This document shows positions 1-19,703 of a stretch of DNA of 64,000 bases, one piece after another. The notes beneath the pieces are model-generated. The model did no database searches and was not told where the DNA came from. It worked only from the letters and a program-made list of their open reading frames with translations. This DNA is from Haloarcula marina (lineage in GTDB: Archaea > Halobacteriota > Halobacteria > Halobacteriales > Haloarculaceae), in NCBI RefSeq assembly GCF_024218775.1, contig NZ_CP100404.1:1116001-1180000 (forward strand), given 5' to 3'. A program made the position numbers and the translations under genes. Positions within the stretch are counted from its first letter, which is position 1. Every line of letters begins with the position of its first letter.

Positions 1-659
1 ACGCTGGCGACGACCGGAGCGACCCGTTCCACCCGGTTGCGCGCGGCGACGATGGCCGCCGGGAACCCCGTTATCCACAGGGCGATACCGCCGAACAGCC
101 CCGCCAGTAGCACCGGATGCCCCGTCCGGACGACCAACAGGCCAGCGAGGTCCGCGCCGACGACGGGCAGGTACGAGAGCGCGTCGACGCGTCCGGGTCG
201 GAGTAGGCCGACGCCGACGGTCAGCCAGAACACGACCTGATAGGGATTCGTCAGTGCGAGGACGAGCGCCTTCCGGAATCCGCGACTTTCGGTATCTGCC
301 GTGTCGACCCCATCTTCACCGGTGAACGCGCTCGCTTCCTCGACGGCCCCGTAGGCGAACCACAGCATCAGCAGGCCGCCCGCACCGACCATCGCGGCCC
401 TGAGGAGTGGCAGTTCGGTGACGAGCGTCGTCACGCCGACGAGCGACAGGACGAAGAAACAGGCGTCGGCGGTCATCGCACCCAGTCCGGCGAACAGGCC
501 CGCCCGCCACCCGCGCAGCGCGCTCTCCTCGGCGATGACGGCGTTCATCGGCCCCGGTGGCGCGGCCAACGCGAGTCCGAAGACGATACCGCCGACGGCC
601 GTCGGAATGAGGGCGAGTCCGTCAGGGTGACTCGTGAGCGGGGGGAGCCAGTGATGCAT
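1..659 (-). CDS. LysE/RhtB-family amino-acid exporter (C-terminus beyond window)
   Basis: The minus-strand frame opens with ATG at 659 (MHHWLPPLTSH) and runs off the left edge, so the C-terminus is missing. It is a polytopic membrane protein. The early segment reads GLALAAPPGPMNAVIAEES, the PGP signature after the first helix of LysE/RhtB exporters. Hydrophobic segments follow (GLFAGLGAMTADACFFVLSL, then AAMVGAGGLLMLWFAYGAV), then a charged loop and ALTNPYQVVFWLTVG, which matches the family NP motif. The family exports amino acids or their derivatives from the cytoplasm; the substrate cannot be read here. About 219 residues are visible of an expected 200-230, so little is missing. Confidence 0.85.
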   Translation of the reverse strand, partial: MHHWLPPLTSHPDGLALIPTAVGGIVFGLALAAPPGPMNAVIAEESALRGWRAGLFAGLGAMTADACFFVLSLVGVTTLVTELPLLRAAMVGAGGLLMLWFAYGAVEEASAFTGEDGVDTADTESRGFRKALVLALTNPYQVVFWLTVGVGLLRPGRVDALSYLPVVGADLAGLLVVRTGHPVLLAGLFGGIALWITGFPAAIVAARNRVERVAPVVAS

Positions 660-4535: not shown

Positions 4536-4931
4536 ATGCCAGACCCGGAACCGGAGGAGAACATCAGCGGGGGCGAGTCGGGCGGCGGCCGCGCGGCGAC
4601 GTTCGATCCGGCGACCGCCGGAACCCGCGCGGAAGCCGTCATCGACCGACTCGGCGACATCTACTGGACCAAGACCTACGGCGGCCGCCCCGCCTTCGAG
4701 TGTCTGGTCCGGACCGTCCTCAGCCAGAACACGTCGGACAAGGCGAGTCAACCCGCCCACGACTCGCTGATGGTGCGGTATGGGGGGACCGACCCGCGAG
4801 AGAGCGACCTCGCGGCCGCACTCGCCGCCGCAGACCAGCAGACGCTCGCCGAGACCATTTCGTCGGCGGGCCTCTACAACCAGAAGTGGTCAAATCAGTA
4901 TAGCACTCTTCTGTACGATTTCGCCGGGTAG
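4536..4931 (+). pseudogene. nth: Endonuclease III, 5' fragment interrupted by integration
   Basis: ATG at 4536 opens a normal Nth N-terminus (RAEAVIDRLGDIYWTKTYGG, FECLVRTVLSQNTSDKA). This is the helical region before the helix-hairpin-helix of DNA glycosylase/AP lyases that remove oxidised pyrimidines. The host-coded part ends at residue 117 (GLYNQK). After the 16-bp repeat the frame continues into element DNA for 14 foreign residues and stops at 4931. The fragment lacks the HhH, the catalytic Lys and Asp, and the Fe-S cysteines, all of which lie in the 3' fragment at 21756-22244. Joining 4536-4886 to 21777-22244 gives an intact protein of about 272 residues. Confidence 0.93.
4872..4887 (+). 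repeat. attL: attL core, 16-bp direct repeat
   Basis: CTCTACAACCAGAAGT covers codons for LYNQK of Nth. It is identical to 21762-21777. Base 4871 (c) differs from 21761 (t) and base 4888 (g) from 21778 (c), so the identity is exactly 16 bases. The left flank is host nth sequence and the right flank is element DNA. Confidence 0.9.
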
Positions 4932-4968
4932 AAACCTTCTATAACAGTTGCAGTGCCGTCTATGAAGC

Positions 4969-4976
4969 TTATATAC
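4969..4976 (+). promoter_or_regulatory. TATA box of the integration operon
   Basis: TTATATAC lies 28-35 bases before the ATG at 5004, the spacing expected for a leaderless or near-leaderless haloarchaeal transcript. It would drive the small gene at 5004 and the integrase at 5598. Confidence 0.55.
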
Positions 4977-5003
4977 GAGCAGTGATGTCGATTGCAGCGG
5001 AAA

Positions 5004-5597
5004 ATGGGCGACAAGACGCAAGTCAACATCCGGATCGACGAGACGAAGAAGGAGGACTGGTGCGAGTACGCAGAAGAGAGCGCGGAGTACACCTCACTGA
5101 GCCACCTGATGCGCCTCGCAGTCGAACGCGAGATGGCGGGAACCCACTCACCCGAATCCGCCCAAGACGCCGAGGTTGACCTCGCTCCCCTGCTGTCTCG
5201 GATTGAAGAACTGGACGACACCGTGTCCACGATGGCCGCCCAGATGGACGCACTGGAGACCGGACAGTTCGCCGACTCCGAGGAGATTGACGAGATGGCC
5301 GACCGCCTCTACGACATCATCCCCCGCCGCAAACTCGACGAACGGGAAACGGTGGTGAGCGCGGCGCGCGACTTCATCGAGGACGCGGACTACTGGCTCG
5401 AACAGAAGGATGGGTCGCTGGCTGACCTCGCCGAGGAGGAACCCGAACTGGGGTATGCCATCGTCGAGGCGTATCGTCGGATGCTGGGCGCAGACGAGTA
5501 CGAGATGAGACAGGCGATTGAGCGGCTGGATGACTACTCATCGCGCGTCGAGCACGTCACAGCGACGAAGTACGACGTTCTCTTCGAGGTGGCTTAG
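5004..5597 (+). CDS. Element protein upstream of the integrase (putative RHH-like N-terminus)
   Basis: This protein of 197 residues starts at ATG 5004 (MGDKTQVNIRIDETKKEDW); an upstream in-frame start at 4992 is less likely given the TATA position. The N-terminal 45 residues read like a ribbon-helix-helix: a short beta strand (QVNIRID) followed by helices ending LSHLMRLAVEREM. The middle contains a possible coiled coil (LLSRIEELDDTVSTMAAQMDALE) and the C-terminal half is helical and acidic. Its stop codon abuts the integrase ATG with no gap, so the two are almost certainly cotranscribed. A role as an excision or directionality factor, or as integrase regulator, is inference from position only. 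Confidence 0.75.
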   Translation: MGDKTQVNIRIDETKKEDWCEYAEESAEYTSLSHLMRLAVEREMAGTHSPESAQDAEVDLAPLLSRIEELDDTVSTMAAQMDALETGQFADSEEIDEMADRLYDIIPRRKLDERETVVSAARDFIEDADYWLEQKDGSLADLAEEEPELGYAIVEAYRRMLGADEYEMRQAIERLDDYSSRVEHVTATKYDVLFEVA

Positions 5598-6617
5598 ATG
5601 AAGAACATCACCCGAAAAAAGTTCAATCACGAACTGGGTTACGAGTTCGTCGTCTCTCGGCGGAACAAGAGCGAGAACCAGACGCTGACGGGGTATAGAG
5701 TCGCATCCGACGGATTCCTCACGTTCCTCGACGAGCGTGAGACGGAGCTCGAGGACGTGGACTGGACGGACATCGACGCGTGGATCAGCTCGATGGTGGA
5801 TGAGTACGCCGAGTCGTCTATCAAGACACGTTACAACCATCTGCGCACGTTCATCGCTTGGCTGCAGGCTCGTAAGGGGTATTTCCGCGACCGTGACGTG
5901 CTCCCAACTGATGCGAAACATCTGGACATCACGGAGTACATCACTCGCGGCAAGACGCGCAAGGAAGAGGAGATGAACGCGAAGGGCGGAATTGTCTGGG
6001 TGCGAGACGAGGAGTACGAGCTGCTGAAGCAGAACGTGCCCGAGCCGAAGTTCAGGAACGAACTGATCCTCAAAATGCTCCGCGGGATGGGGTTGCGGCG
6101 GTCGGAAGTCGCCGAACTCCAAATCACTCCACAAATGGAACATCAAGACCGTTATGGGGCAATCAATCTCGATGACAGCAAGCTGATGACACCCCCAGTC
6201 AAGAGTGACAGCGGTCGTGAGATGTGGTTCGGATCCGGGATTGCTCGGCCACTGCGCCGCTGGATCGACACCGAGCGCGAACCGGTCTACTATTCGGACG
6301 ATTCAGACTACCTATTCCCCTCTCGCAGCTCGGAACAGCTGAAGCCGAAGAGTGTGACAAGTATGGTGGTGAAAGCCGCTGAACGAGCGGGTATCCAGTC
6401 GACGATGTACACGGACGCGGGCGGGGGAAAGAGAAATCGAATCACTCCCCACGCACTGCGGCACGCGTACGGCGTCACTCACGTCCGCAACGGCACGGAC
6501 ATCATGACATTGAAGAATCTGATGGGGCACGCCGACATCAGCACCACGCAGACCTACCTCCAGTTCCGAGATGAAAAGATGCGGGAAGCTCAGCACCGGA
6601 ACGCGCCCGATGTTTAG
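5598..6617 (+). CDS. int: Tyrosine recombinase (integrase)
   Basis: A 339-residue tyrosine recombinase. It has an N-terminal core-binding (SAM-like) domain, residues about 15-100 (SSMVDEYAESSIKTRYNHLR), and a catalytic domain. The catalytic pieces are the first Arg in RGMGLRRSEVAEL, the H-x-x-R box in TPHALRHAYGVTH, the second His in LMGHADISTTQTY and the nucleophile Tyr in QTYLQF. All are present, so the enzyme looks active. It sits near attL, pointing into the element, as is usual for archaeal integrases. It is intact, so this is not the SSV type, where integration splits int. It is presumed to act on the 16-bp core inside nth. Confidence 0.95.
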   Translation: MKNITRKKFNHELGYEFVVSRRNKSENQTLTGYRVASDGFLTFLDERETELEDVDWTDIDAWISSMVDEYAESSIKTRYNHLRTFIAWLQARKGYFRDRDVLPTDAKHLDITEYITRGKTRKEEEMNAKGGIVWVRDEEYELLKQNVPEPKFRNELILKMLRGMGLRRSEVAELQITPQMEHQDRYGAINLDDSKLMTPPVKSDSGREMWFGSGIARPLRRWIDTEREPVYYSDDSDYLFPSRSSEQLKPKSVTSMVVKAAERAGIQSTMYTDAGGGKRNRITPHALRHAYGVTHVRNGTDIMTLKNLMGHADISTTQTYLQFRDEKMREAQHRNAPDV

Positions 6618-6648
6618 ACGAACCGCCTCGGCGAGCTGACCCATCTCG

Positions 6649-7353
6649 TCACGAACGGAAGTACCGCAACTGGTGCAACACGTCCCTCACCACCCGTTGA
6701 GTGCAGTCGATCATCTCCACCCGGTCGGGGAACACGGCCTCGAACTCCTCCTCCAACAGCCGCACCAGACCCTCCGCCGTCAACCACTCCAACAGGCCCG
6801 AGAGCGACGCCTCCTCCACATCCTCCTCGTATGCGGCCCACACATCCCCACGGCCCTCATTGGCCACGTAACGCACCACAGCGTCTATCATCACCAGCCT
6901 ACGCATCGACTGCGGACGGACAGGCCCAGTGGCGCGAAGGGCCTCACGACGGTACCGAGTCGCCTCAGCAGTCACAATGTGACTACTCTGGATCTCAAGT
7001 TGCTCCCCTGTCCAGTCAGTGTACGGGTCATCGGCCTCCTCCGCCGAAGAGATGTTCCCCGCCCACTCCTCGGCGAACTCGACAGTCGGCGGTCGCCACT
7101 CCCCCCGATCGGTCTTGCTCACTATACTCACCTCGCACATCACCCACCCGTACCCCCCAGCGGTCTCCTGATCGACAGTGGCGGTGACGTACAGTTCCCC
7201 CTCATCCCAACCATACGTGTCCCTCGTCGGTTCGAGGTACTGAACGCCCTCAATCATCATCTCCACGTCTTCGTACTCGCCAGCGTCGACGATGGCGGTC
7301 GCGCCCGGAACTAGACCTGCCAACTCTTCCACCAACTCCTCGTCAGCAGTCAT
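6649..7353 (-). CDS. Element orphan protein, 234 residues
   Basis: I do not recognise a family. The N-terminal half (about residues 25-95) looks like a beta-rich domain (VEMMIEGVQYLEPTRD, GELYVTATVDQETAGGYGWV). The C-terminal half is helical and acidic (ASLSGLLEWLTAEGLVRLLE, CTQRVVRDVLHQLRYF). There are no membrane segments and no signal peptide. It converges on the integrase, with 31 bases between the stops. Upstream on the same strand are a zinc microprotein (7450-7614) and the RHH/J-domain protein, so the three may form one minus-strand operon of early element functions. Confidence 0.65.
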   Translation of the reverse strand: MTADEELVEELAGLVPGATAIVDAGEYEDVEMMIEGVQYLEPTRDTYGWDEGELYVTATVDQETAGGYGWVMCEVSIVSKTDRGEWRPPTVEFAEEWAGNISSAEEADDPYTDWTGEQLEIQSSHIVTAEATRYRREALRATGPVRPQSMRRLVMIDAVVRYVANEGRGDVWAAYEEDVEEASLSGLLEWLTAEGLVRLLEEEFEAVFPDRVEMIDCTQRVVRDVLHQLRYFRS

Positions 7354-7449
7354 ATAGTGACGACGATGAACGTCGCCGACAAGAAACCCGGTGAAAACGG
7401 GCAGACCACCCCACTACCGCACCACGAATCCGCCTTCGCCGAGGTGAGA

Positions 7450-7614
7450 TTACACCGACAAACGACCGTCAGCCCGCCACCCCTCGGGGAGCATCGTGTG
7501 GAACTTGGCCACCTCCGCGGGGGCCTCGCGACAGTCACATCCAAGAACGCCCTCACGGACGATGTGGACTTCACCGCACCGCTCACACACGATGACGGAC
7601 TTGTTAAACTTCAT
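7450..7614 (-). CDS. Zinc-ribbon microprotein
   Basis: A 54-residue protein, ATG at 7614 and TAA at 7450-7452. It reads MKFNKSVIVCERCGEV at the N-terminus, so a C-x2-C knuckle lies at residues 10-13. A second pair, GCDCRE, lies at residues 26-28. The fold is probably one zinc finger. A TATA-like tttaaact lies about 35 bases upstream. A competing frame at 7350-7586 on this strand is Pro/Arg/Ser-rich and lacks such a motif. The role is unknown; such microproteins are common in archaeal plasmids and viruses. Confidence 0.65.
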   Translation of the reverse strand: MKFNKSVIVCERCGEVHIVREGVLGCDCREAPAEVAKFHTMLPEGWRADGRLSV

Positions 7615-7685
7615 TTGTCCTAACTAAACGTAAGTTGTCAAGCAGTTTAAATGACTTGCGAGAAGGGTAGCGCCGTCCTGCGAAT

Positions 7686-9128
7686 CTACAGGGCGTGCAT
7701 CGCGTCCATCACCACCTCCATCTCCGCCGGCCCGAGCGCCTCATCATCGGACTCCGCCTTGTCTGGGTGTCGCTCCTTCAGTGCCCGGATTGCCGCCGCG
7801 TGAAGCTCCTGATCAGAGGCATCGGGCGAGACACCGACAACCCCGGCCACCTCGTCTCGGTCAATCTCGACGGTATCGTCGTCACCAGACTCGAACACCA
7901 TCTCCTCGATCTGCTCCACGTACTCACTCGAATCCGAGACAAATTCCGCCACATCATCCTCGGACGACGGGTCAGTGTCTGCCGCCTCCGAGACGAGAGC
8001 GATGACCGGGTGCGAGTCGAAGCGGCCAACGAGCTGCTCGGCACGCTTCGCCATCAACACCACCACACGCTTCGCCCCACGAATCTTCTCGCTCGCAGTC
8101 ATCTTCTCACCGTACGGTCGGTTGTCGCTCGGCTGTGTCGCCGCGATACTGCGGATAATCTCCTCGGCGACTGCCCACACCTGCTCGAGATACGCCTCCT
8201 CGTCCACGTACAGCGAGTCAAGATCCCAGTTAGTCGCTGGCATCGCCCAACTGACGAACCCTATCACGTCGTCAGGATAGCACTCAGGATGCTCAATCTC
8301 CGACGGATGCACGTCACCCCACTTGTCCACAGCGAACGACAGCACGTCCTCGTAGGCCTCTTCGCCGACGATCTCGTCGTCCGAGGAAGGATGAGAGTAA
8401 ATCACGCCCTCGGCCTCCATCATCGGTCGGTAACTGTACCGAGCAGTGTAACTGGATAGACCCAACTCGGACGTAATCAGACGCTCTAGTGTATCCCAGT
8501 CCGTCTGACCGCCGACGACTCGACTGTCATCCATCTCGTCGTCGATGTGGTTGACCATCGCTCGGATCGTCGGGATGCACTGCTCGTGCGTCTTCGCTAT
8601 GTCCTCCTTCAGCTCAAGGTCTCGTACGACATCTGGGTCAACCTTCTCGTCGGTCGTCATCTCCCCGTCGATGGACTCGATAGTCTCGGAGGCTTCCAGC
8701 ACATCCGGCGGTCGCGACGCCTCGTCGTCCTCGGAGACGGTCGCGAGCATGTCGGACTCTACGTCTTCGCCATCCTCGGTTTGGGAATCCGTTTGGGAAT
8801 CCTCGGCTGAGAATATATTATCCGAGCTGGTGTCGTCGTCGGATGGGGTGCCCCCCACCATCTCCATCATCTCGTCCTGTTTCTCCATCATCACACGCTG
8901 CTGATCGAGCATCTCGTCGAGACGGTCGCGGCCAGCACCATCACCATCAACCTCGTAATCGTCAATCTCGAACGCTCCATCGTCAGTTACCGTGGACTGC
9001 TCTTTCAGCCGTCGAAGAGCCGTGTCCATCACGTCCGCTTTCGAGAGGTTGGTCTGTTCTGCTACGCCATCGACGAACTCCTGCAGGTCTTCATCGACTC
9101 GCTGTCGGTAAGGGGTACGATCACCCAT
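7686..9128 (-). CDS. RHH-like N-terminus fused to a C-terminal J-domain
   Basis: A 480-residue acidic protein. Residues 1-45 (YRQRVDEDLQEFVDGVAEQ, then NLSKADVMDTALRRLKEQ) have the beta-helix-helix pattern of ribbon-helix-helix DNA-binding domains. Residues about 70-150 are low-complexity Asp/Glu/Ser. Residues about 160-420 form an unrecognised helical domain (TRYSYRPMMEAEGVIYSHP style). The last 60 residues read GVSPDASDQELHAAAIRALK then HPD at about 454-456 and a closing helix, which is a J-domain able to recruit DnaK/Hsp70. RHH plus J-domain suggests a DNA-bound factor remodelled by Hsp70, as in plasmid replication initiators, but this is inference. One arm of the long inverted repeat lies inside its coding sequence, around codons 102-112. 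Confidence 0.75.
   Translation of the reverse strand: MGDRTPYRQRVDEDLQEFVDGVAEQTNLSKADVMDTALRRLKEQSTVTDDGAFEIDDYEVDGDGAGRDRLDEMLDQQRVMMEKQDEMMEMVGGTPSDDDTSSDNIFSAEDSQTDSQTEDGEDVESDMLATVSEDDEASRPPDVLEASETIESIDGEMTTDEKVDPDVVRDLELKEDIAKTHEQCIPTIRAMVNHIDDEMDDSRVVGGQTDWDTLERLITSELGLSSYTARYSYRPMMEAEGVIYSHPSSDDEIVGEEAYEDVLSFAVDKWGDVHPSEIEHPECYPDDVIGFVSWAMPATNWDLDSLYVDEEAYLEQVWAVAEEIIRSIAATQPSDNRPYGEKMTASEKIRGAKRVVVLMAKRAEQLVGRFDSHPVIALVSEAADTDPSSEDDVAEFVSDSSEYVEQIEEMVFESGDDDTVEIDRDEVAGVVGVSPDASDQELHAAAIRALKERHPDKAESDDEALGPAEMEVVMDAMHAL
8791..8824 (+). repeat. Long inverted repeat, left arm (inside coding sequence)
   Basis: A 34-base segment whose reverse complement occurs at 9366-9399 with a single mismatch (33 of 34). 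It overlaps the acidic linker codons of the RHH/J protein and contains one GATTCCCAAA unit in inverse orientation, with a second inverse unit just outside at 8780-8789. The AT-rich part reads GAATATATTATC. Confidence 0.9.
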
Positions 9129-9365
9129 CTACACGCTGGTGTAGACACTCTGTGTGTAAATACCCCTCGGTAAACTGTCATATTCTCCCCACCCATCTAA
9201 CACAACACACACAAAATGTAGACTTTGTACAGTAGTAGTAGGACGATCGAGAAGGAGGGAGAGGGAAGAGGAGAGGCCCGGCGAGAGAACGGCGGGCTGA
9301 GGGCGTGAGACCGCGAGTTTGACCGCGACACCCCGGCGGGGGTGTACCGAGCGACCGAGACGACG

Positions 9366-9399
9366 CGGATAATATATTCACAGCCGAGGATTCCCAAAC
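9366..9399 (-). repeat. Long inverted repeat, right arm (upstream of RHH/J gene)
   Basis: This is the reverse complement of 8791-8824 apart from one base. It lies about 240 bases upstream of the RHH/J start, in the 463-base non-coding interval 9129-9591. It contains an AT-rich core (ATAATATATTC) in otherwise GC-rich DNA and runs directly into three direct GATTCCCAAA units. The remainder of the interval has no gene that I can support. Confidence 0.9.
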
Positions 9400-9425
9400 G
9401 ACGATTCCCAAAGGAGATTCCCAAA
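9389..9425 (+). repeat. GATTCCCAAA iterons, candidate replication origin or operator
   Basis: GATTCCCAAA occurs at 9389-9398, 9403-9412 and 9416-9425, so the starts are 14 and 13 bases apart. Two inverse copies lie at 8780-8789 and 8792-8801. Regularly spaced direct repeats beside an AT-rich stretch and a DNA-binding-protein gene are the usual layout of an iteron-type origin or an autoregulatory operator. No haloarchaeal Rep or Orc1/Cdc6 gene is visible in the element, so which protein binds here is unknown. Confidence 0.7.
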
Positions 9426-9591
9426 ACCTCCGGGGAGTCACCCGACAACCCGCGAGAGGTCTGCGGCGTTCGACGCGGCCTCCGCGAGGACGGCGGCGTC
9501 TGTCGGCGTTCGACGTGTTCCGCCGTCGTGTTGTCCACGGGCGACTCGAAGCGACGCGTCCGCCTGTCTCGCCTGTTCAGTCAGGATGTGA

Positions 9592-9882
9592 CTACAGGTC
9601 TTTCGGGAACTCGTACTCTTGTCCGTTGAACGTGATCGTTCGAGTTTCACGTTGGGCTTTCTCTTCTTCGGTCAGTCCGTCCCCAACTCGCCGTTCTCGT
9701 TCGTCGATGCCTGAGAACACGTGTTCGACTTTCTGCTCCAGTTCGGTGAGAGCGTCTTCGGGATCGAGGTCTCCGTCATCGACCGCCTCTCGCGTCTCTC
9801 GGACGAGATGTAAGAGGCTCCGGAAGTCTTCGCGCGGTGCGAACCCAGACGCGGGTTCGAGATTGAAATTGTCGTCTGTCAT
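9592..9882 (-). CDS. Element orphan acidic protein, 96 residues
   Basis: ATG at 9882 (MTDDNFNLEPASGFAPREDF) is preferred to the longer frame starting 9903, because the extra residues are not acidic and the shorter start gives a natural N-terminus. It is predicted helical (LLHLVRETREAVDDGDLDPE, ALTELEQKVEHVFSGIDERE) and has a C-terminal strand-rich tail (TRTITFNGQEYEFPKDL). I see no family. It lies between the iteron region and the 0.9-kb repeat-bearing non-coding tract. Confidence 0.6.
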   Translation of the reverse strand: MTDDNFNLEPASGFAPREDFRSLLHLVRETREAVDDGDLDPEDALTELEQKVEHVFSGIDERERRVGDGLTEEEKAQRETRTITFNGQEYEFPKDL

Positions 9883-10043
9883 ATGGCTGTCGCGCCGCGC
9901 CACCCAGTTAAGCGTTTCTGCGGTTTTCTCGCGTTTCAGCGCCTGTACCCTTTGTTATCCATAGATGGTGTGGGCGCTGTGCTTCCGCGTGGTGATGCGC
10001 CCCTGTTCTCCGTCGTGGGCTTTCTGGAACCCACCCCCTCGAC

Positions 10044-10427
10044 TTCCGATGTAAATCTACCTTCGGGGGACACCTGACTTCGAGTTAAGAGACACCCCCT
10101 TGGGTTCCGATGTAAAGTGGTTGTAGAGAGTGCCTTCCCGGCGATAGTGAGTGTTTGAGTTTCGTCACCGGGATTGCATCAGACACCGTCGTCGATATGA
10201 ATTCCATGTTCTCTATCGGCGCCGAGGGACGGCATGTACCCCCACCCCTCGGTTCCGATGTAAACTGTTCTCGGTGTCTCGCGCGCGTGTGCTCGTTGGT
10301 GTGTTTTTCGTCGGTCGCCGGGAACCTGTCTTCGGCGTCGACGTCGATGCTCTGCTCGGCGACGATGTGGGAACCCTGTCTGTGTGTCGATGTCGGGGAA
10401 CCCCTCCCCCTCGACTTCCGATGTAAA
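10044..10427 (+). repeat. Four-copy TTCCGATGTAAA repeat array in non-coding DNA
   Basis: TTCCGATGTAAA occurs exactly at 10044-10055, 10105-10116, 10253-10264 and 10416-10427. Each copy follows a C-run such as CACCCCCTCGAC or CCCCCTTGGG. A degenerate copy (TCCCGATGTAAG) lies at 12165-12176, just before the TATA box of the restriction enzyme gene. Spacings of 61, 148 and 163 bases are irregular, unlike CRISPR. The surrounding interval 9883-10796 (914 bases) has no convincing gene on either strand; its open frames are Ser/Arg/Pro-rich with no codon bias. Protein-binding sites or a structured RNA are both possible. Confidence 0.8.
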
Positions 10428-10796
10428 TCCTCTCTTCGTGATCGGGAACCCAGCCTTCTCGGCGACGCGGAACCCCTGTGGTTCCACTGGAGTCTCGGGC
10501 CGCTGTTCTCTTCGAGGATGCTCTGTTCGGCCCGGGGTGAACTGGGGGCGCGGCCTTCCTCTCGCTGAGCGCCCTTTCTCGCGGCGAGGCCATGCGGCCC
10601 GGGAGACCCCCGGTGGTGGATTCAGGTACCGTTTGTTTCTTAGTATGTCGTTGTCCCTGACGGCTCCCTGACGTGGATGGGGGGATGTCGAGGCGGTTTT
10701 GAGAGGCAGTCGCTCTGCTCACCCTGACGTGTCGGGGAGTAGTCCGGGGTTCTGATGGGGTTTTTACACGTCCAGAACCTATCAATTAGTGGGGGT

Positions 10797-11444
10797 ATGG
10801 AACAAGATGAACTGTCAACCACGTTCAACGGAGTCGAACTGAGCGGGCGGCAACGGCTCGTACTTCACCACGTTGTGAAGCGCATCGAGATGGATGATGG
10901 CGAGAAGATGTGGCAGACCACCGTCAAGGAGGACAGCGTGACCACCGGGGAAGTGAAACGGGCTTGTGATGCCATCGACTGGTCTAAACAGCTCATCCGT
11001 GACCTGCGGCAACTACACTCGGCTGGGCTCGTTGTCAACGTCCTTGACGAGGTGAGATGGGACAACCGAGGTGCTGCCAAGGAGCCAAAATGTATCGCCC
11101 TCAACGTCTCTGTGGAACTAGCGATTGAGGCGGCAATTACTCCGGATGAGTACTGGGCGGTTCATCGCCCTGAACCGGAGGATCTCGACGAGGCTATTGA
11201 GCAGATTGACGCACTCCGCGAGCGGGTGGACGAGTTGGAGGAGGAGCTGAATCAGGCGAAGGCGGTCAAGAATAGCGCGTTGGAGAACGCGAAGAAGATG
11301 CGTGAGAAGGCCGAGGAGATGGCAGAGCGGAACAAGGAGATGGAGGAGCGGCTCAAGGAGATGGAGACGAAGCTGTACCAGATGGACGAGAAGATCGAGA
11401 ACCCGGGTCTCGTGGCTGATGAGTTCACCTTCGGCGACGACTGA
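10797..11444 (+). CDS. wHTH-like protein with C-terminal coiled coil
   Basis: A 215-residue protein starting at ATG 10797 (MEQDELSTTFNGVELSGRQR); the longer frame from 10755 lacks acidic composition. The N-terminal 100 residues look like a winged helix (GEVKRACDAIDWSKQLIRDL then RQLHSAGLVVNVLDEV). A long coiled coil runs from about residue 125 to 200 (QIDALRERVDELEEELNQAK, EKAEEMAERNKEMEERLKEM). DNA binding with coiled-coil dimerisation fits a partition, replication or transcription factor; I cannot tell which. It is the first plus-strand gene after the TTCCGATGTAAA array, so the array may control it. Confidence 0.7.
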   Translation: MEQDELSTTFNGVELSGRQRLVLHHVVKRIEMDDGEKMWQTTVKEDSVTTGEVKRACDAIDWSKQLIRDLRQLHSAGLVVNVLDEVRWDNRGAAKEPKCIALNVSVELAIEAAITPDEYWAVHRPEPEDLDEAIEQIDALRERVDELEEELNQAKAVKNSALENAKKMREKAEEMAERNKEMEERLKEMETKLYQMDEKIENPGLVADEFTFGDD

Positions 11445-11469
11445 CCTAACCGCTGTTTCTCGGCGACCG

Positions 11470-11673
11470 TCACGCGTTCATCGCCTCGCGTGCTTTCTCC
11501 AACGTCTCCTTCTTCCTCTCTGGAACGTGGCCCACCTCGTCGGCGGTGGCCGTCGGTTTCCACACGTGATGTGTCTGGCCGCACTCGGGGCAGTCCACAC
11601 GACCGCCGGCTCCTTCGACGTTCCATTTCTGTTCTCGCCCGCAGTCGTCGCACGTGTCGGTGATCGTCGCCAT
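11470..11673 (-). CDS. Zinc-ribbon protein, 67 residues
   Basis: The N-terminus reads MATITDTCDDCGREQKW and a second knuckle follows as RVDCPECGQTHHVW, giving a classic C-x2-C...C-x2-C zinc ribbon in the first 36 residues. A basic helical tail comes next (RKKETLEKAREAMNA). It is convergent with the wHTH/coiled-coil gene. Similar small ribbons often bind nucleic acid or basal transcription proteins, but the partner here is unknown. Confidence 0.7.
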   Translation of the reverse strand: MATITDTCDDCGREQKWNVEGAGGRVDCPECGQTHHVWKPTATADEVGHVPERKKETLEKAREAMNA

Positions 11674-11801
11674 ACGTGCTCAGCGCCCCTCCTCGGTTAT
11701 AAGGGCGCTGGGTGGGGTTGACGGAGTCACGCGGTTATCGGTGTGATGTCGTGAGGTTCACGGGCTGCCGCTTAAATTGTCAATAGACATACTTGTTAGT
11801 G

Positions 11802-12032
11802 ATGGTAGAACCGTTTGGCGACACGTGCGACGAGTGCGAACGTCACGTGCAGGACTGGCGTGGTCTCGCGTACGAGGTCAGCGAGAACCGTTGGGAGTAC
11901 CTCTGCCCGGGGTGCGCCGAGGGACGCGATTATCTGGACGACAGTGAAGGCTTGACACCCCATCGTTTCCGGTGCAGGCAGTCGCGAGAACTATTCTACG
12001 CACCGTTAGCCGGCACCAAGTCAGGATGCTGA
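11802..12032 (+). CDS. Zinc-finger protein, 76 residues
   Basis: ATG at 11802 (MVEPFGDTCDECERHV) lies about 25 bases after a TATA-like ttaaatt. Two C-x2-C knuckles are present, TCDECER and LCPGCAEG, about 30 residues apart. The last 25 residues (TPHRFRCRQSRELFY) are basic and unlike the front. A separate minus-strand fragment with a stop at 12021 overlaps its 3' end. The function is unknown. Confidence 0.6.
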   Translation: MVEPFGDTCDECERHVQDWRGLAYEVSENRWEYLCPGCAEGRDYLDDSEGLTPHRFRCRQSRELFYAPLAGTKSGC

Positions 12033-12180
12033 AACCACGTCTCCGACCGTCCCGTGGTGGCTAGAGCCGGGATCATCCTCCGAGAGGTAGGCCCGCACCT
12101 CGTCACCCTCCGAGTAAGGTTCGTTCGTGGGCTAGGAAACATCTTCCATACATCCACTCCGTCGTCCCGATGTAAGTGAA

Positions 12181-12188
12181 TTTTTAAG
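12181..12188 (+). promoter_or_regulatory. TATA box of the type IIG enzyme gene
   Basis: TTTTTAAG lies 26-33 bases before ATG 12214, suited to a leaderless mRNA and arguing for this start over the TTG at 12193. The degenerate repeat copy TCCCGATGTAAG ends five bases upstream, in the position of a B-recognition element or operator. Confidence 0.55.
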
Positions 12189-12213
12189 AAGGTTGTATCT
12201 GAATGGGGAATTA

Positions 12214-15200
12214 ATGCCGGATACTTTCCTCGTCGATATTCACGAGGCCTTCCAAGAGATTGGTGGCGAGATTCGTTCCGAGGGGAGCGAATTCGACTTC
12301 AGATACAGTCTCGTCGATCATCTGTTTACGGACGCACTCGGCTGGTCACGCACCGAGGGCGAGGGGCACGTCAACTTCGAGGACGACAGGAAAGACGTCC
12401 TCTGTTACGACGACAGTAATCCGCCGTTCCCAGTCATCGCGTGCGAGACGAAGCGACCTTCTCACGAGCTTGAACTGGGCGACGTCGAGCAGTTGGAGAC
12501 GTACATGGTGGGCATTGGGAGTGCAGAGTACGGAATTCTGACGAACGGTCACGAGTTCCGCATCTACGAGTACTCCGCGGATGATCGTTCGCTATCCGCC
12601 ATCAACGACTTCGACATCGGCCTCGTGGCCAACTCGGAGTCGGTTGAGAATCTGACCGCCGAGCAGCAGGAGGCACTCGGCGAGTTGGAGTACTTCCGTC
12701 GTGACCGCTATACGAACGTCGGGGACGCGGAGTACTTCCGTGACCGAGCGAAGGAGGTGCCGGTTCAGTACCAGCCGGGTACGGATGACGAGGGATACGA
12801 TCTGTTCCTTGAGGCCGTGAAGGAATCGTTGGACGAGTTGTCCAGCGTAATGGAGCGATTCTTCGACAACTACAGTGATCGGCCGGATGGTTCCTACCCG
12901 AAGGAGTTTCTGGAAACGACCTTCCCCGACTGGAAGGACTGGAGGGAGTACACCGGCAAGAGCGACGACGCGAAGCAGACGTTCTGCCGGGAGACGGCGT
13001 ACATCCTGATGAACCGGGCGTTATTCGCGCGGATCGCCGAGGACAAGGAAATCGTTGGCAACACGCGTCTGTCCGGGCGTGGGATGGCCGACGCACTCGA
13101 TCAGGATGATGAGCGTCCGTATCTTGAGGCGTTGATGGACACGTACGACAGGATTGACGATCACTACTCAGACCTGTACGAACTCGGTATCTTCGACTGG
13201 TGGTGGGTGTCGAGGGACAAACGTCAGCGGTTCGACTCCGACGAGGAAAGTCAGCAGGAGGATCTCGAGGATGATCTGGACTACCGACTCGGCGAGGTAT
13301 TCAAGCGATTGAACCGCTTCGACTTCGAGTACGTCAACCGTGACATTCTCGGCCACGTCTATGAGGACTACCTCCCGCAGGAGGAACGGAAGGAACTCGG
13401 GGAGTACTACACACCCATCGAGGTCATCCGGTACATGTTGGACGAGACCGGGTACAAGGCGAACAAGGGAATCGGCCGGCAGAAGATTCTCGATCCGGCG
13501 TGTGGGAGTGGTGGTTTCCTGACCGAGGCGACGGAACGACTCATCCAGCACTACATCGACAAGTTCGGCAAGACCAGCATTCACTACCTCGACGCGGAGG
13601 AGGCGCGGACGATTTTGGAGCGTGTTGAGGAGAACGTGTACGGCATCGACATCAACCCGTTTGCCGTCCACATCACCCAGATTAACCTCCTGTTCCGCAC
13701 CGTCGATCTCTACGACAAGGTGACGGAGCAAGACCCGTCCTACACGATGGATGGGTTCGAGATTCACGTCGCGGACACGTTGACGCCGACCGTGTTGGAG
13801 CAGCAGGAGGGGAGTACTGACGACGAGGGGAAGCAGTCACAAATCGGCCAGTTCGCCCAGTATAATGGCCGTGCGCAGTCGTTCCTTGACGACAGGGACG
13901 CGGTTGACCGCATCAAGGACGAGATGGAGTTCGACGTGGTGATTGCGAACCCGCCGTACGTCCGCGTGCAGAACATCAACGGGCCGAAGGAGGACTACGT
14001 GGCCCGGTACTCGTCTGTCGAGAGCAACTTTGACATCTACGTGCCGTTCATCGAGCGCGGACTGGACTGGTTGAAGGATGACGGGAACCTCTCGTACATT
14101 TGCCCGAACCGCGTGCTCTCTCACGAGTACAGCGAGTTGATTCGTGACCAACTCGCCGAGGAGCCGCTCACCCACATTATCGACTTCAAGGACGTGGAGG
14201 TGTTCGATGCGGCGACTCCGTACCCGTGTATCTTCACCGTGGATAGAGACCGCTCGCCGGAAGAGCCGGTACAGTGCGCGAGGTTCGCCGAGGAGCGAGA
14301 CAGGATACTCGAAGAGATTCACCGGCGAGACGATTGGGAGAACCCGGACGTCGACGCCTACGATCTGTACACCTACGAGAAGGAGCAGATGCGGGCGGAC
14401 AACGCGGACGATTACCTACCGAGTTGGAAGCCGATGCCGGACTCGGAACGTCGTCTGTTCGACAAGATTGAGGAGCAGGGAGATATGCGGGTGGGGGAGA
14501 TTTCGGCTGAGGTGTTTGTCGGGACGCAGACGAGTGCGAACACGGTCTACATCGGAGAGATTGTCGGTCAGACCGACGAGGAGGGCGTCGTCGAGTTCGC
14601 ACCGAGCGGGTACGACGAGACGCATCTCATCGAGGAGGAGATCCTTACTCGCGTGCTGAAGGGCAAAGAGATCGACCGATGGGGCGTCGACTGGGAGGGT
14701 CTCTGGATGATTCTGCCCTACGAAGTGTCGGCCGACGACTTCGACGTGATTCCACAGTCTGTGTTGGAGGAGGAGATGCCGCACGCGTGGGACTTCTTCC
14801 TCGAATACGAGGAGAAGCTGAAGGGGCGGGAGTCCGGCAAGATGAGGGGTGAGGACGACTGGTACGGCTACATCTATCCGAAGAACCTCACCAAGTTCGA
14901 TCCGGATAAGATTATGACGAACATCCTCAGCAGCTACAACCGATTCGTCGCCGACACGGAGGGCGAGTACTACTTCGTCGGCGGTGGAAATGCCGGCGGA
15001 TACGGGATTCAGTTGCGTGACGAATACGCACCCACGTCTGAGGATCACCTGTACTACGTCGCCCTCCTCAACTCCTCGGTGCTGGAGTTCTACCACAAGC
15101 ACATCGCCCCAATCTTCGGCGGGAAGTATTACTCGTACAACAAGAGGTACTTGGAGCCGCATCCCATCGCTCTCCCCAATGATGTCCCGGAGGATACCGT

Positions 15201-15723
15201 GGCGGAGTACGCCGAGGACATTCAGAGCTCCCGTGCGGAGCGCACGGACTTGGAGTACAAGACGAGCGACGTGCGCAACTACCTGCCAGACTACGAGAAG
15301 GAAAGTTCCATTCTCGATCTCGCACAGTCCATCAACCTCGACGGTGACGACTACCGACAGGGCCCTATTCGCAAGGACGCGAAGATGGATGTGGAGACCA
15401 CCAAGGAGGTGTATCAGGTGGTGATGAAGCAGAACCACGAGATTGAGTTCGGTGACGAGCGGGTGCGAGACTTCGTGTTCGAGTTGCTGACTGCCCAGAA
15501 CCGGCGGCTCTCCCGTTCCGAAGTCATCAATATGGACACTCCGTCCCGAGAGTCCGTCATCGAGCTGATGGACGAGTACCTCGGCGATATGGAACGGATT
15601 GAGGAGTTGAAAGAGGAGTTCGACCGACTGTGCGACGAGTTGGACGAGATAGTGCTTCGTGACGTGTACGGGCTCGGTGACACCGACGAGAACACTGTCG
15701 AAGAGTTCCTCGAGGTCTGGTGA
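12214..15723 (+). CDS. Type IIG restriction-modification enzyme (fused nuclease-methyltransferase)
   Basis: A 1169-residue single-chain enzyme. The N-terminal domain has a PD-(D/E)XK-like set: D61 in RKDVL, then E78-T-K80 in IACETKRP. A helical spacer follows, then an N6-adenine methyltransferase with SAM motif [11 protein letters not shown] (about 427) and catalytic motif NPPYV (about 579). The C-terminal TaqI-like target-recognition region includes [14 protein letters not shown] and [20 protein letters not shown]. This is the Eco57I/type IIG layout, in which one polypeptide both methylates and cuts DNA. It stands alone on the element with no separate specificity subunit. Likely roles are defence or stabilising the element. 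Motifs look intact. Confidence 0.9.
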
Positions 15724-15730
15724 GTCGGGG

Positions 15731-16270
15731 CTAATCGAGGAGGTCTTCGATTCGTGACTTGAGTATATCGAATCCTTCAGTCCCCGTTTCAACGTCTGAT
15801 GCACCGGGAATGACGACTTTGCCGCTCCCGAAGATGAGGAATACACAGTCGATGTCGGGTGGGCGGTAAACGACTCCGGGGAACTGTTCCGGTTCATACT
15901 CTGTTTGCTCCAGTCCGAGGCCGATGGAGAGGGCGTTCAGGTTGACCTCACGGCCGAGATCTCCGGTCTGGACGACGTTCTTGATGGCGAATGTTGGCGT
16001 CGTTTCGATGCCAAGGTCTTCGAGGACGTCCACCATCCAGTCCTTCATCCGTTCCGTCTCGTCCAGACTGTTGCCGCCGGTGATGTGGTAGCTTCCGGAG
16101 CGAAATAGTGTGACCATCGGACTGCCCTCGTCGCGTCGGAGGTACACCACGTCGTTTGTGTAGTCCTTTTCGGGGTAGCTGACGATGGCGTTCACGTCCT
16201 CGCCGACGCTGGAAACTTCGATTTCTCTGCCCAGATTCCCCGATGCGACGACGTTGACTATTTCCGGCAT
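15731..16270 (-). CDS. tbp: Element-encoded diverged TATA-binding protein
   Basis: A 179-residue protein with the two-repeat TBP saddle. The second repeat is canonical (NVVQTGDLGREVNLNALSIG, EYEPEQFPGVVYRPPD, FLIFGSGKVVIPGA). The first repeat keeps the opening NVVASGNLGREIEVSSVGED, but its core is heavily changed (SYPEKDYTNDVVYLRRDEG, TLFRSGSYHITGGNS). TBP binds TATA boxes with TFB to start transcription. A copy with one altered half-saddle could favour element promoters or act as a competitor of host TBPs. It is convergent with the restriction enzyme gene and heads the minus-strand block back to 17990. Confidence 0.92.
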   Translation of the reverse strand: MPEIVNVVASGNLGREIEVSSVGEDVNAIVSYPEKDYTNDVVYLRRDEGSPMVTLFRSGSYHITGGNSLDETERMKDWMVDVLEDLGIETTPTFAIKNVVQTGDLGREVNLNALSIGLGLEQTEYEPEQFPGVVYRPPDIDCVFLIFGSGKVVIPGASDVETGTEGFDILKSRIEDLLD

Positions 16271-16282
16271 TTGATGTGGTTG

Positions 16283-16711
16283 TTATCTGATCGGTGGGTG
16301 TCGCCTGTTGCGGCCACCGGCGTTCTTGAGCACGTCCACGAGCAATACGAGGAAGCAGGCGCCGACAAGCAAGATCATTCCGACCGTGAACGAACCGCTG
16401 AGGAAGAGCGTCGTCCCCATCCAACCGATGAAGTACACGGCCACACCCGCCTTGTCGGCCCACACGTAGGCGGCAAGGACGGGTGCGATGTAGGCGAGAA
16501 CGAAGTAGACGATTCCCCACGCGGTGAAGATGGTGCCGAGGTCTACGAGCGTCTGTTCCGGGTTGAGCGTCTGCTGCACGGCGGCGAGCTGGGCGAACAC
16601 CACGACGACGATCTTGTTGAGGAAGGCGAGTGCGATCCCCTCAGCGAAGCCAGCGATAACTCCTTGAGCCGTCGTTGGATCGGGGTCACTCGCCGGTTGT
16701 CCGTACGCCAT
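16283..16711 (-). CDS. Small polytopic membrane protein
   Basis: A 142-residue protein with about four hydrophobic helices: GIALAFLNKIVVVVFAQLAA, FTAWGIVYFVLAYIAPVLAA, VAVYFIGWMGTTLFLSGSF and MILLVGACFLVLLVDVL. The C-terminus is basic (GGRNRRHPPIR). There is no signal peptide or catalytic motif. It lies two bases downstream of the next upstream gene's stop and 12 bases before tbp, so the block is probably one transcript. A virion membrane or cell-surface role is possible but unsupported. Confidence 0.7.
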   Translation of the reverse strand: MAYGQPASDPDPTTAQGVIAGFAEGIALAFLNKIVVVVFAQLAAVQQTLNPEQTLVDLGTIFTAWGIVYFVLAYIAPVLAAYVWADKAGVAVYFIGWMGTTLFLSGSFTVGMILLVGACFLVLLVDVLKNAGGRNRRHPPIR

Positions 16712-16713
16712 CC

Positions 16714-17175
16714 TCAGTCCTCCTCCTCCGCCTCATCGTCCGGAAACATACTCGCCCCGTTCGAGTCAACGAAGTACACCGGGCCGTCGATTTGGACGTC
16801 GACGTCGTTGTTGTCGCCCTCGACTTTGGCGAGTACTATCTCGTCGTCCTCCTCTACCCTGTACATCTCCATCCTATCTTCGGCCCACGGTTCGATCTGG
16901 TGACCATCCTCGTTCCTCGTCCACATGTGGTAGAACGCGGGGTTGGAGCGGGCGAGTTTGTAGATGTTGACGAGCGTATCGACACTCGTGACCGCGAGTG
17001 TGCCCGCCATCAGGGCAAGCGAAGCACCAGCATCGGAGTTGGCCACCATCGCCGCGTCTTGCTTCCGCTCTTCGACTTCGACGCCGTCGACCGCCTCCAG
17101 CTCCGAGATTGCTGCCTCGTACTCTTCGTCGGTGATGTCGTCGGCGCGGAAGTTGACGTGTGTGATGTAGCTCAT
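16714..17175 (-). CDS. Element orphan protein with one hydrophobic segment
   Basis: A 153-residue protein; ATG 17175 (MSYITHVNFRADDITDEEYE) is preferred over the longer start at 17187. The N-terminus looks like a small alpha/beta ferredoxin-like unit, followed by a hydrophobic stretch about residues 52-75 (AGASLALMAGTLAVTSVDTL). After that comes an acidic region with beta-strand character (VDVQIDGPVYFVDSNGASMF) and a tail of Asp/Glu. It is packed in the minus-strand block with the four-helix membrane protein, so the two may act together at the membrane. Confidence 0.6.
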   Translation of the reverse strand: MSYITHVNFRADDITDEEYEAAISELEAVDGVEVEERKQDAAMVANSDAGASLALMAGTLAVTSVDTLVNIYKLARSNPAFYHMWTRNEDGHQIEPWAEDRMEMYRVEEDDEIVLAKVEGDNNDVDVQIDGPVYFVDSNGASMFPDDEAEEED

Positions 17176-17183
17176 GGGTGGAC

Positions 17184-17462
17184 TCACTTTGCGTGGATTA
17201 CAGTCTCGTAGCCGTCGCCGGCGACGTTGACGTAGGGCGCGTGGCCCAGCACGCCCATCGAATAGTCACGACACACGGTGATACCCGGGCCATACTCTGT
17301 CCCGGTTTCCAGCGTTACGCTGGGGTAGTCGTGGGGTTGGTGGACGGTTATGCGGACGTAGTTGCCTGCGCGTTCGCGGACGGTGCCGCGGATACGTGTG
17401 GATCCTTCTCCGTCGATGCAGGCAAACGTGACCTCGTCGCCCTCCTTGAGACGCCCAATCAC
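17184..17462 (-). CDS. Small beta-rich (SH3-like) protein
   Basis: A 92-residue protein opening MIGRLKEGDEVTFACIDGEG, then RIRGTVRERAGNYVRITVHQ. The alternating strands and the G-D-E-V / G-T-V spacing suggest a small SH3-like barrel. A fragment with the same pattern (YSEGDEVRAYLSED...GTVGDVV) lies on the minus strand at 12021-12131. It fits the tight minus-strand gene block, with an 8-base gap to the gene downstream. Function unknown. Confidence 0.6.
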   Translation of the reverse strand: MIGRLKEGDEVTFACIDGEGSTRIRGTVRERAGNYVRITVHQPHDYPSVTLETGTEYGPGITVCRDYSMGVLGHAPYVNVAGDGYETVIHAK

Positions 17463-17468
17463 GTGTGG

Positions 17469-17990
17469 CTACTCGTCCTCCGGTGGTTCGGGCTTGCCGA
17501 GGTCTTCGAGCGTGTGCTTACCGTGATCGGTGAGATAGTACTTGTAGTACGGGTTCGCCACGTCCTCGACGCGCTCGCGTTCGAGCATCTTGCGCTCCCA
17601 CAGCTGGGTGAGGGCGGGATAGATGCTGGACTCGTTCACGCCTTCGACCCCCTCCTTGATTTCCTTGCCGGAGACGGACGTGCTGCCGTTGTTGCTCCGT
17701 TCCGCAACCTCGCCGAGGACGCGGTGGTGACTGGTGTTAGTCTTGATGTTTCCCTTTTCGCGCTTGGCCTCTTTCTCGGCTTCGCGCTCTTCGCGTGTTT
17801 GCTCGTTGGAGGCGTCCGTGGTGTAGTCCGTGGTTGTGGCTTGTTTCATCTCTTGATCGCTGCTATCGGCTGTGTTGATCGTGATGGACACCGATGTGAT
17901 TGTCTCGTCGGATGCGTACTGGTCAAGGATGCGGCGAGCGTGAGCGGTGGGATTGTCGCCCGAGACTTCGAGTTTGACTAATTGACTCAT
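17469..17990 (-). CDS. PadR-like winged-helix regulator with N-terminal extension
   Basis: A 173-residue protein starting MSQLVKLEVSGDNPTAHAR at ATG 17990. The first 60 residues form an alpha/beta unit (ETITSVSITINTADSSDQEM), followed by a charged helix (REEREAEKEAKREKG). The C-terminal 90 residues are a PadR-type wHTH: GVNESSIYPALTQLWERKML, then the wing VANPYYKYYLTDHGKHTLED. A perfect dyad (GTGTGT-6-ACACAC) lies about 80-95 bases upstream and could be its operator. As first gene of the minus-strand block running to tbp, it is the probable local regulator. Confidence 0.75.
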   Translation of the reverse strand: MSQLVKLEVSGDNPTAHARRILDQYASDETITSVSITINTADSSDQEMKQATTTDYTTDASNEQTREEREAEKEAKREKGNIKTNTSHHRVLGEVAERSNNGSTSVSGKEIKEGVEGVNESSIYPALTQLWERKMLERERVEDVANPYYKYYLTDHGKHTLEDLGKPEPPEDE

Positions 17991-18067
17991 CTTGTTGAAG
18001 GCGTAGTTGCGCAACCACCTTAACTGTGTGGGTTGGAAAGGGCGTTTTTGCCCGTGTTGTGCTCTCC

Positions 18068-18085
18068 GTGTGTTGAAGTACACAC
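18068..18085. promoter_or_regulatory. Inverted repeat, candidate PadR operator
   Basis: GTGTGT (18068-18073) and ACACAC (18080-18085) are perfect inverted arms around TGAAGT. It sits between two wHTH regulator genes, 78 bases upstream of the PadR-like start and 80 bases after the stop of the 18166-18441 gene. No binding evidence exists beyond the symmetry. Confidence 0.4.
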
Positions 18086-18165
18086 TACGCGAATAACGGG
18101 TTTGACCTGCTCAGGCTCCGAGAAACAGTTTAGAAATGGGTTCCGTACTGGTGGTAGATACTCAG

Positions 18166-18441
18166 TCAAACATCTGTTTTGGACTGCACGTGCGTGGCCA
18201 CGTGCATCCTATCTGCGCTGTCTTGGGTGACGAGGCCTTCGTCGCCGAGGACTTCGAGGGCTTCGAGGACGATGAGTCGGGGGAGGTCAAGCGCGTCGGC
18301 GATTTCTCGGGGTGTGGCTGGGCCTCGCTCGTCGAGGTAGAGGAGGACGAGTTTCGCTCTGGGCGATTCGACTGCTTCGATCACATGTGGGAGTCGAGGC
18401 CGTGTCTGGGGTAAGTGCTCCTCGTCTGACCCCCCACCCAC
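18166..18441 (-). CDS. Small winged-helix regulator
   Basis: About 91 residues with a clear wHTH: ESPRAKLVLLYLDERGPATP, REIADALDLPRLIVLEALEV, then EGLVTQDSADRMHVATHV. The frame has no ATG close by. GTG at 18441 (VGGGSDEEHLPQTRP) gives a natural length, whereas the longer frame to 18543 reads through promoter-like sequence and overlaps the divergent gene at 18491. It resembles MarR/ArsR-type single-domain regulators. Start uncertain. Confidence 0.6.
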   Translation of the reverse strand: MGGGSDEEHLPQTRPRLPHVIEAVESPRAKLVLLYLDERGPATPREIADALDLPRLIVLEALEVLGDEGLVTQDSADRMHVATHVQSKTDV

Positions 18442-18490
18442 ATAATACTTTACGCAAATGACTATTTGGGGGGAGTGAGTGGCGTGATAC

Positions 18491-18664
18491 ATGGAAGAAC
18501 GAGAGTTCAAGTATCGCGGTGCCGCGAACCTCGACGAGACCAACGGGGTGGTTGATCCGGGCTGGGACGAGGACGAGACGTTCGAGGCGGTCGTGCAAGA
18601 GCTATACGATGAGGGCGAGATTAGCGACCGCGCCCGAGACGAGTTACTCGATTGGTGGGATTAG
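18491..18664 (+). CDS. Acidic microprotein, 57 residues
   Basis: ATG 18491 to TAG 18664. It is very acidic (DPGWDEDETFEAVVQELYDE) and ends in DELLDWWD; the EGEISDRARDELL part looks like a short SHOCT-type helical hairpin. It is transcribed divergently from the wHTH at 18166-18441. No known function; the clean acidic composition supports a real gene. Confidence 0.5.
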   Translation: MEEREFKYRGAANLDETNGVVDPGWDEDETFEAVVQELYDEGEISDRARDELLDWWD

Positions 18665-18776
18665 TCACATTGTGACGAACCGAGAGTAGTCACCCCGGTG
18701 GCGACTTCGTGCAGAAGCACGGCGAGAATAGGCTCCCCGGCCTCTGGTTCTGATAGGGTATCGGGGTAGGCCGTTG

Positions 18777-19511
18777 TCACGAGGACTCATCGGTTCCGAG
18801 GGTCTTCTTTGCATCCTCAACCATTCTCTCCTGCAGCTCGAGGTACTCGTCAAGTTCTTCCTCGTGTTCATCGATCACGAGGCCTCTGAAATCATCGTGG
18901 AACGCCATTAAATCTGTGTGGTGTTCCTCGATTACACTGAGTAGCGGTATTCTGTCGTCCCCGTACCCCTCGAGAAATTCGCCTGTCTTCGGACTCCAGT
19001 AGTTTCCCGTTGATTTCCATTCCTCAATATCTTCTCGGTAGACGAGGAATGAGACTCGCTCATCCGCATCCTCTGCTTTCCACGAGTAGACCGTGTTTGC
19101 GTTGACGAGAACGTGCTTTTGGATGAGGTTCCGCATCGTTTTGAGGAAGTCCGAGGTTGGGCGGATGTCGTGTTCGCGCAACAGTCGGTTGTACTCGTCT
19201 TTCCCCTCCTCGCTGAATCGGCGGTCGCGGAGGCTTTTCGTGTACTCGTACTGGGACTCGTATGCGGAGAGGTAGTTGTGGAGGAGTCGGTACAGTTCCT
19301 CTTTCACCCTCATCCTGTGGCTCAGGGGTGCATCGAGGACGTACTCTTCGTTGAGGACGTACTCGTCTACGAAGTTGCTTAGGAGTTCGAAGTTTCGTTC
19401 AAGTGTATGGAGGACGATCCGGATGTCGCTTAGTTTGTTGGAGACCCCTTCGTATTCGTGTTCGCCCATCTCGTCCATCAAATCAACAAAATCCCTGTCA
19501 TCCTCACCCAT
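18777..19511 (-). CDS. Element orphan helical protein, 244 residues
   Basis: I do not recognise a family. The protein is acidic and almost entirely helical (KLSDIRIVLHTLERNFELLS, HRMRVKEELYRLLHNYLSAY). One more ordered central part contains aromatic residues (NANTVYSWKAEDADERVSFL, STGNYWSPKTGEFLEGYGDD). No membrane segment or known catalytic motif is evident. It sits alone, flanked by regulators and divergent from the AbrB/recombinase pair. Codon use is the element's, with more A/T-ending codons. It could be a cargo gene. Confidence 0.65.
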   Translation of the reverse strand: MGEDDRDFVDLMDEMGEHEYEGVSNKLSDIRIVLHTLERNFELLSNFVDEYVLNEEYVLDAPLSHRMRVKEELYRLLHNYLSAYESQYEYTKSLRDRRFSEEGKDEYNRLLREHDIRPTSDFLKTMRNLIQKHVLVNANTVYSWKAEDADERVSFLVYREDIEEWKSTGNYWSPKTGEFLEGYGDDRIPLLSVIEEHHTDLMAFHDDFRGLVIDEHEEELDEYLELQERMVEDAKKTLGTDESS

Positions 19512-19639: not shown

Positions 19640-19703
19640 ACAGTAGAGCATCGGAGATTCACTCCGAACCCCCTCTGGATACCCGACAACTCACTTAGAG
19701 AAT

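Follow-up and report, generated by a model that had tools for sequence, protein, structure and literature searches.

We analyzed a 64,000-nucleotide stretch of Haloarcula marina DNA (the window) and found that it contains an integrated mobile element, whose ends are formed by a 16-bp direct repeat and which is inserted in the host nth gene; joining the flanks gives back an open nth (endonuclease III) reading frame. In addition to a tyrosine integrase, the element encodes an Eco57I-like/PglX-like restriction-methylation protein, a TBP-like protein, a resolvase-type serine recombinase, small regulators and a 480-aa protein with a J domain, the subject of this work. Among the element proteins scanned, we detected neither Orc1/Cdc6 nor a known Rep nor a polymerase. 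The only Rfam match is sub-threshold, a tRNA-like sequence close within the element's right end (21634-21710, minus strand; score 24.4 against a gathering score of 29), which was missed by ARAGORN and is possibly a degenerate tRNA. In the host DNA to the left of the element, positions 698-1588 (minus strand) hold a long ORF (296 aa) of coiled-coil type that has long open antisense frames.

The 480-aa protein starts with two predicted helices, and ribbon-helix-helix (RHH) profiles match in two members of its family (RHH_5, E=0.003; RHH_3, E=0.045), both below the cut-offs. An acidic linker predicted to be disordered (residues 90-139) leads to a middle part with weak HTH profile matches and to the C-terminal J domain, which carries the HPD motif in all five members and whose profile matches DnaJ structures at 2e-7. 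Foldseek searches against the PDB and viral models gave nothing useful beyond J domains, and the protein matched no known Rep family in Pfam, PHROGs or NCBIfam, where the J domain and weak HTH and RHH similarities were all that appeared.

Homologs were sought across the haloarchaeal order and its main families, in roughly 500 species. A three-member profile that included the J domain matched nearly every genome, and because the J domain alone drew these matches, later searches used a J-less profile. The family is rare: besides the H. marina gene, we found members in genomes G184, G344 (Halorubellus salinus) and G548, and a remote one in G502. Protein identity to the H. marina member is about 30-42%, and about 23% for the G502 protein, which lacks the RHH domain and the linker and whose gene adjoins a ParA gene. 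All known copies are integrated or lie in large contigs; viral contigs and phage and plasmid records, searched with single proteins and with alignments, yielded no full-length homolog and no free small plasmid or virus with the J gene.

Table 1. Features of the Haloarcula marina element. Offsets are counted from the ATG of the J gene.
Feature	Position in window	Strand	Remarks
Integrated mobile element, ~16.9 kb	4888..21777	.	att core CTCTACAACCAGAAGT at 4872-4887 and 21762-21777
Tyrosine integrase of element	5598..6617	+	
234-aa protein	6649..7353	-	homolog (37.5%) at equivalent place in G184
Small CxxC zinc-finger-like ORF	7453..7614	-	directly downstream of J gene; counterparts after J gene in G184, G344, G548
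480-aa protein (J gene)	7686..9128	-	RHH-like N-terminus, disordered linker, HTH-like middle, C-terminal J domain with HPD motif
Two GATTCCCAAA units (8780, 8792)	8780..8801	-	within coding sequence
Intragenic arm	8790..8824	-	+304..+338; within predicted disordered acidic linker; contains gene's most AT-rich 15-mer
Family-specific cis element CTACTACTACTGTACAAAGTCTACATTTTGTG	9210..9241	-	about -113 to -80
Upstream arm	9366..9400	+	-272..-238; AT-rich quasi-palindrome and one GATTCCCAAA unit
Three GATTCCCAAA units (9389, 9403, 9416)	9389..9425	+	private to H. marina element
Non-coding array: four CCGATGTAAA and four GGGAACC units	10030..10480	+	
Divergent gene, coiled-coil tail	10755..11444	+	beyond repeat-rich non-coding region

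The surroundings of the J gene are partly shared among its relatives. A CxxC ORF follows it in four members, the kinship of the H. marina copy being judged by eye. A divergent gene also lies at the matching place in G184 and G344; those two are detectably related to each other, and the H. marina product resembles them in position and, by eye, in its C-terminal ADEF/ELxFGD end. The GGGAACC array recurs at the equivalent place in G184. The four non-coding CCGATGTAAA units (10030-10430) each lie in a C-rich context and were not seen in related loci.

The promoter and first ~100 codons of the J gene are bracketed by the arms of an inverted repeat. A sequence-only reading of the window had reported a repeat with 33 of 34 bases matching (8791-8824 and 9366-9399), one arm inside the gene and the other upstream, accompanied by an AT-rich core and by five GATTCCCAAA units, three in one direction and two in the other. 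Our analysis bears out this description. The repeat is one base longer (34 of 35 nt complementary, with 541 nt between the arms), its intragenic arm falls within the ORF of the 480-aa protein, the core GATAATATATTC is found in each arm, and the five units lie in two inverted groups. The 64 kb contain exactly five copies of GATTCCCAAA where 0.05 would be expected, and none of the shuffles produced as many; the extended unit GATTCCCAAACG has two copies in the entire 3.74-Mb genome, both at this repeat. The units are unevenly spaced, by 12 nt in the coding arm and by 14 and 13 nt upstream. None of 300 shuffles reached the score of the repeat. A bulge-helix-bulge processing stem was considered and dropped, since a match of 34 in 35 leaves no bulge.

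The arrangement of the arms recurs in relatives. The G184 and G344 proteins are only ~30% identical to that of H. marina, yet their genes have a different repeat of their own at both places (about -245 and +295). In G184, the arms span 40 nt with 83% complementarity (33/40), one upstream (-239..-200) and one intragenic (263..302), and G344 has a perfect 16/16 pair (-254..-239 and 287..302) with a weaker extension. In all three loci, the arms are the top repeat. When 299 ORFs, spurious ones included, were ranked by their best local inverted-repeat score between -350..-150 and +200..+420, the H. marina J gene came first (33, against 7-16 for the bulk), and the top three (33, 26 and 21) were exactly the J genes of H. 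marina, G184 and G344. G548 has its best pair at the equivalent place (-248 and 281-299), a weak one that is not significant alone, and the G502 gene, which encodes neither the RHH domain nor the linker, has no paired repeat. The upstream offset is constant across members, at about -234 to -247. A constant helical phase was rejected for the arms, whose spacings of about 560, 531, 541 and 533 bp are out of phase.

These comparisons bear directly on whether the repeat means anything. In a single genome, one inverted duplication of 35 nt could yield a near-perfect repeat, so that chance or a recent non-functional duplication might account for it. Independent homologs, however, carry a different repeat at equivalent positions with a common motif, and this reading, already contradicted by the comparative data, is scarcely credible. 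The sequence-only reading had argued for selection at the DNA level from the conservation of the coding arm, an argument that a single copy in one genome does not carry; selection at this level is nevertheless supported because distant homologs retain the layout while the sequence differs. That reading had also proposed to look for the same repeat in related elements, and would have taken a kept protein with a lost repeat as evidence against it. The outcome favors the repeat in G184 and G344 and weakly in G548, which keep the layout with a changed arm sequence, and goes against it in the remote G502, which has the protein without the repeat. Because distant relatives keep the arrangement while the wording of the sites changes, the bracketing sites are very likely functional, as a control or a replication switch, and not coincidental.

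The sites themselves have a common element. In all four RHH-type members, the 15-mer with the highest AT content in the gene is found at about +285..+307 (start positions +285 to +306), where it coincides with the intragenic arm, and the stretch of protein encoded there is predicted to be disordered and is unalignable among members. Leave-one-out motifs, built from a small set of eight sites in genomes where AT-rich DNA is rare and any AT-rich motif is favored, placed the arms among the best of 39,966 positions: ranks 1 and 2 in G344, 1, 3, 6 and 12 in G184, and 2, 3 and 8 in H. marina. When the motif was trained without G548, the intragenic site of that genome (+285) ranked first. Since motifs learned from other members recover them in this way, the arms have in common a quasi-palindrome rich in AT, about 18 bp long and approximating CTGAGAATATATTATCYG. 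The GATTCCCAAA units are absent from the homologous loci, and for this reason we regard the quasi-palindrome, and not the iterons, as the conserved unit; its pairing is kept while the flanking sequence, iterons included, is element-specific.

Two further readings take the arms for something other than protein-binding sites that pair. The AT block of each arm could be a BRE/TATA element, so that convergent promoters would produce overlapping sense and antisense RNAs over the gene start, as in antisense copy control. The common motif CTGAGAA-TATATTA does resemble an archaeal core promoter, and the AT-rich block is the sole feature common to all members. However, identity spans 35-40 nt in H. marina and G184, far beyond a TATA box, similarity in the flanks falls outside the AT block for H. 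marina and inside it for G184 and G344, and the direction of the block is undefined because it is quasi-palindromic. A promoter consensus from 26 local ORFs was too noisy to weigh for or against TATA boxes in the arms. We consider convergent promoters improbable. Alternatively, the arms could be recombination sites at which the 610-bp segment flips, given that they are inverted, flank a promoter and belong to an element encoding both tyrosine and serine recombinases. The arms of G184 and G548 are too diverged for such a switch. Nor would flipping gain the gene another start or an extended N-terminus: in the three members analyzed, the flipped segment offers 26, 43 and 27 open codons. We regard inversion as highly improbable.

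Between the arms, we identified a second family-specific element with a TAC repeat. Of 392 genomes, 3 contain CTACTACTACTGTAYAA, located near -100 and confined to the upstream regions of J-family genes. The form CTACTACTACTGTA(C/T)AA, near -100 in three members, again turns up in 3 of 392 genomes and at precisely these genes; G548 contains the closely similar CTACTACTACTACTGATTACG.

Nucleotide skew is consistent with an origin between the arms. The minimum of cumulative G-C (-6.5..+3 kb) lies at -90 in H. marina, +240 in G184 and -91 in G344, inside the bracket in each case, and the turn coincides with the divergent gene pair. Third-position skew corrected by host genes shifts in opposite directions upstream and downstream (p=0.005 for a hand-picked gene set), and we give it little weight because the divergent genes confound it and because the integrase and the neighboring RHH gene, which do not follow the turn, contradict it. 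The skew evidence for an origin inside the bracket is therefore suggestive only. The proposal of an iteron origin in the sequence-only reading thus stands in part: three elements have a skew turn inside the bracket, confounded by gene orientation, and the iterons are not found in relatives. A handcuffing site and an autoregulatory loop, which that reading also offered, both enter the explanations below as possible mechanisms. Sites similar to TTCCACNGGAAA, the ORB pattern with its G-string, occur at chance level in the window.

The main rival to a role of the paired sites in replication or maintenance is transcriptional autoregulation alone, a pure operator loop in which the upstream and intragenic sites repress the gene's own promoter. 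Operators within genes serve repression looping in gal and lac, and here the two sites flank the promoter, the upstream one at a constant offset; the 480-aa protein looks like an RHH-type regulator by its weak profiles, and a divergent regulator-like gene adjoins. Such a loop would account neither for the J domain and the plasmid-type context nor for the skew minimum and the very large size of the repeat-rich intergenic region, and we consider it unlikely, though worth serious attention. It is also conceivable that the arms are a centromere-like site for partition of the excised element, given that RHH proteins often bind partition sites beside their own genes and that the remote G502 member adjoins a ParA gene. 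No ParA was found among the scanned proteins of the H. marina element, however, and two far-apart sites are unlike the usual clustered array, which makes a centromere very unlikely.

We are about evenly divided on whether the element's own protein binds the arms as paired sites within a replication or maintenance control region of a plasmid-like integrative element, the explanation that we consider best. The 480-aa protein is the presumed binder of the arms and the best candidate for an initiator or regulator, a role assigned to it by elimination and because of its context, namely the ParA gene beside the G502 member. Under this explanation, protein dimers would bind the AT-rich quasi-palindrome of each arm, helped in the H. 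marina element by the GATTCCCAAA units. The occupied arms, about 560 bp apart, would then pair in cis and loop out the promoter and the 5' end of the gene or, alternatively, pair in trans between element copies, as in handcuffing. Pairing would shut the protein's own promoter and restrain initiation at an AT-rich, TAC-repeat origin region between the arms, until the C-terminal J domain recruits the host DnaK and the dimers and paired complexes are dismantled. There is precedent for this last step in bacterial iteron systems, where chaperones lower initiator dimerization and handcuffing (PMC5395669).

The arrangement bears parallels with several known systems. As in the iteron replicons of P1 RepA, F RepE and V. 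cholerae RctB, repeats lie beside an initiator- or regulator-like gene in AT-rich DNA, and the inhibition by pairing and the DnaJ/DnaK dependence of those replicons (PMC5395669) are what we propose for the H. marina element. In contrast to them, the H. marina protein has the J domain fused in and matches no known Rep family, one of the sites is intragenic, and each arm has two to three iterons that are unconserved in relatives. Haloarchaeal Orc1/Cdc6 origins also have inverted sites by an AT-rich region adjoining a presumed initiator gene (PMC3528665), whereas the scanned proteins of this element gave no Orc1/Cdc6 match and the ORB-like pattern is at chance level. Rep-Arvir/SNJ2 betapleolipovirus replication likewise involves a haloarchaeal integrative element with a tyrosine integrase and a DNA structure near the presumed replication gene, but Rep-Arvir uses one hairpin, placed downstream of the gene for a nicking enzyme (PMC13107129), rather than two distant arms with a J-domain protein. 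The gal and lac loops share with our locus an upstream and an intragenic operator with the promoter between them, and differ in having unrelated proteins, whereas here sites of about 35 bp are separated by about 560 bp and the protein has a chaperone-recruiting domain. By analogy, the arms would function as iteron/handcuffing regions or gal/lac-type operator loops do while probably belonging to neither, and we place them in none of the known systems because of the lack of a known Rep or Orc1/Cdc6, the unconserved iterons and the chance-level ORB-like pattern.

To our knowledge, replication control is uncharacterized for most archaeal integrative elements. Our results define a compact unit that comprises a single gene, the two sites around its start and a family-specific motif; in it, position is conserved and sequence is not, and ordinary annotation would overlook the regulatory site inside the coding sequence. 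If the protein is an initiator, it would carry, fused to itself, the DnaJ function for which bacterial plasmid initiators depend on their host. It is tempting to hypothesize, tentatively, that this is a new type of archaeal replicon control, with an initiator that has a built-in J domain and a coding sequence that holds half of a paired origin or handcuffing site; a single unit of gene and site would then unite the recruitment of chaperones with the pairing of origins.

Several observations concern the cargo carried with the J gene. The H. marina element has a single-protein Eco57I/PglX-like restriction-methylation gene (12193-15723), and G184 has one that is 73% identical at a nearly equal distance from its J gene; set against J proteins that are 30% identical, this looks as if defense cargo had been swapped on a common backbone. 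The TBP-like protein adjoining the restriction gene (15731-16270, minus strand) has a 36% homolog between large defense-like genes in G502 (locus L043). In G548 (locus L042), the J gene lies near a gene that by eye resembles a CBASS-like nucleotidyltransferase and near a large helicase-like gene, 76% identical to one in G502, again defense cargo.
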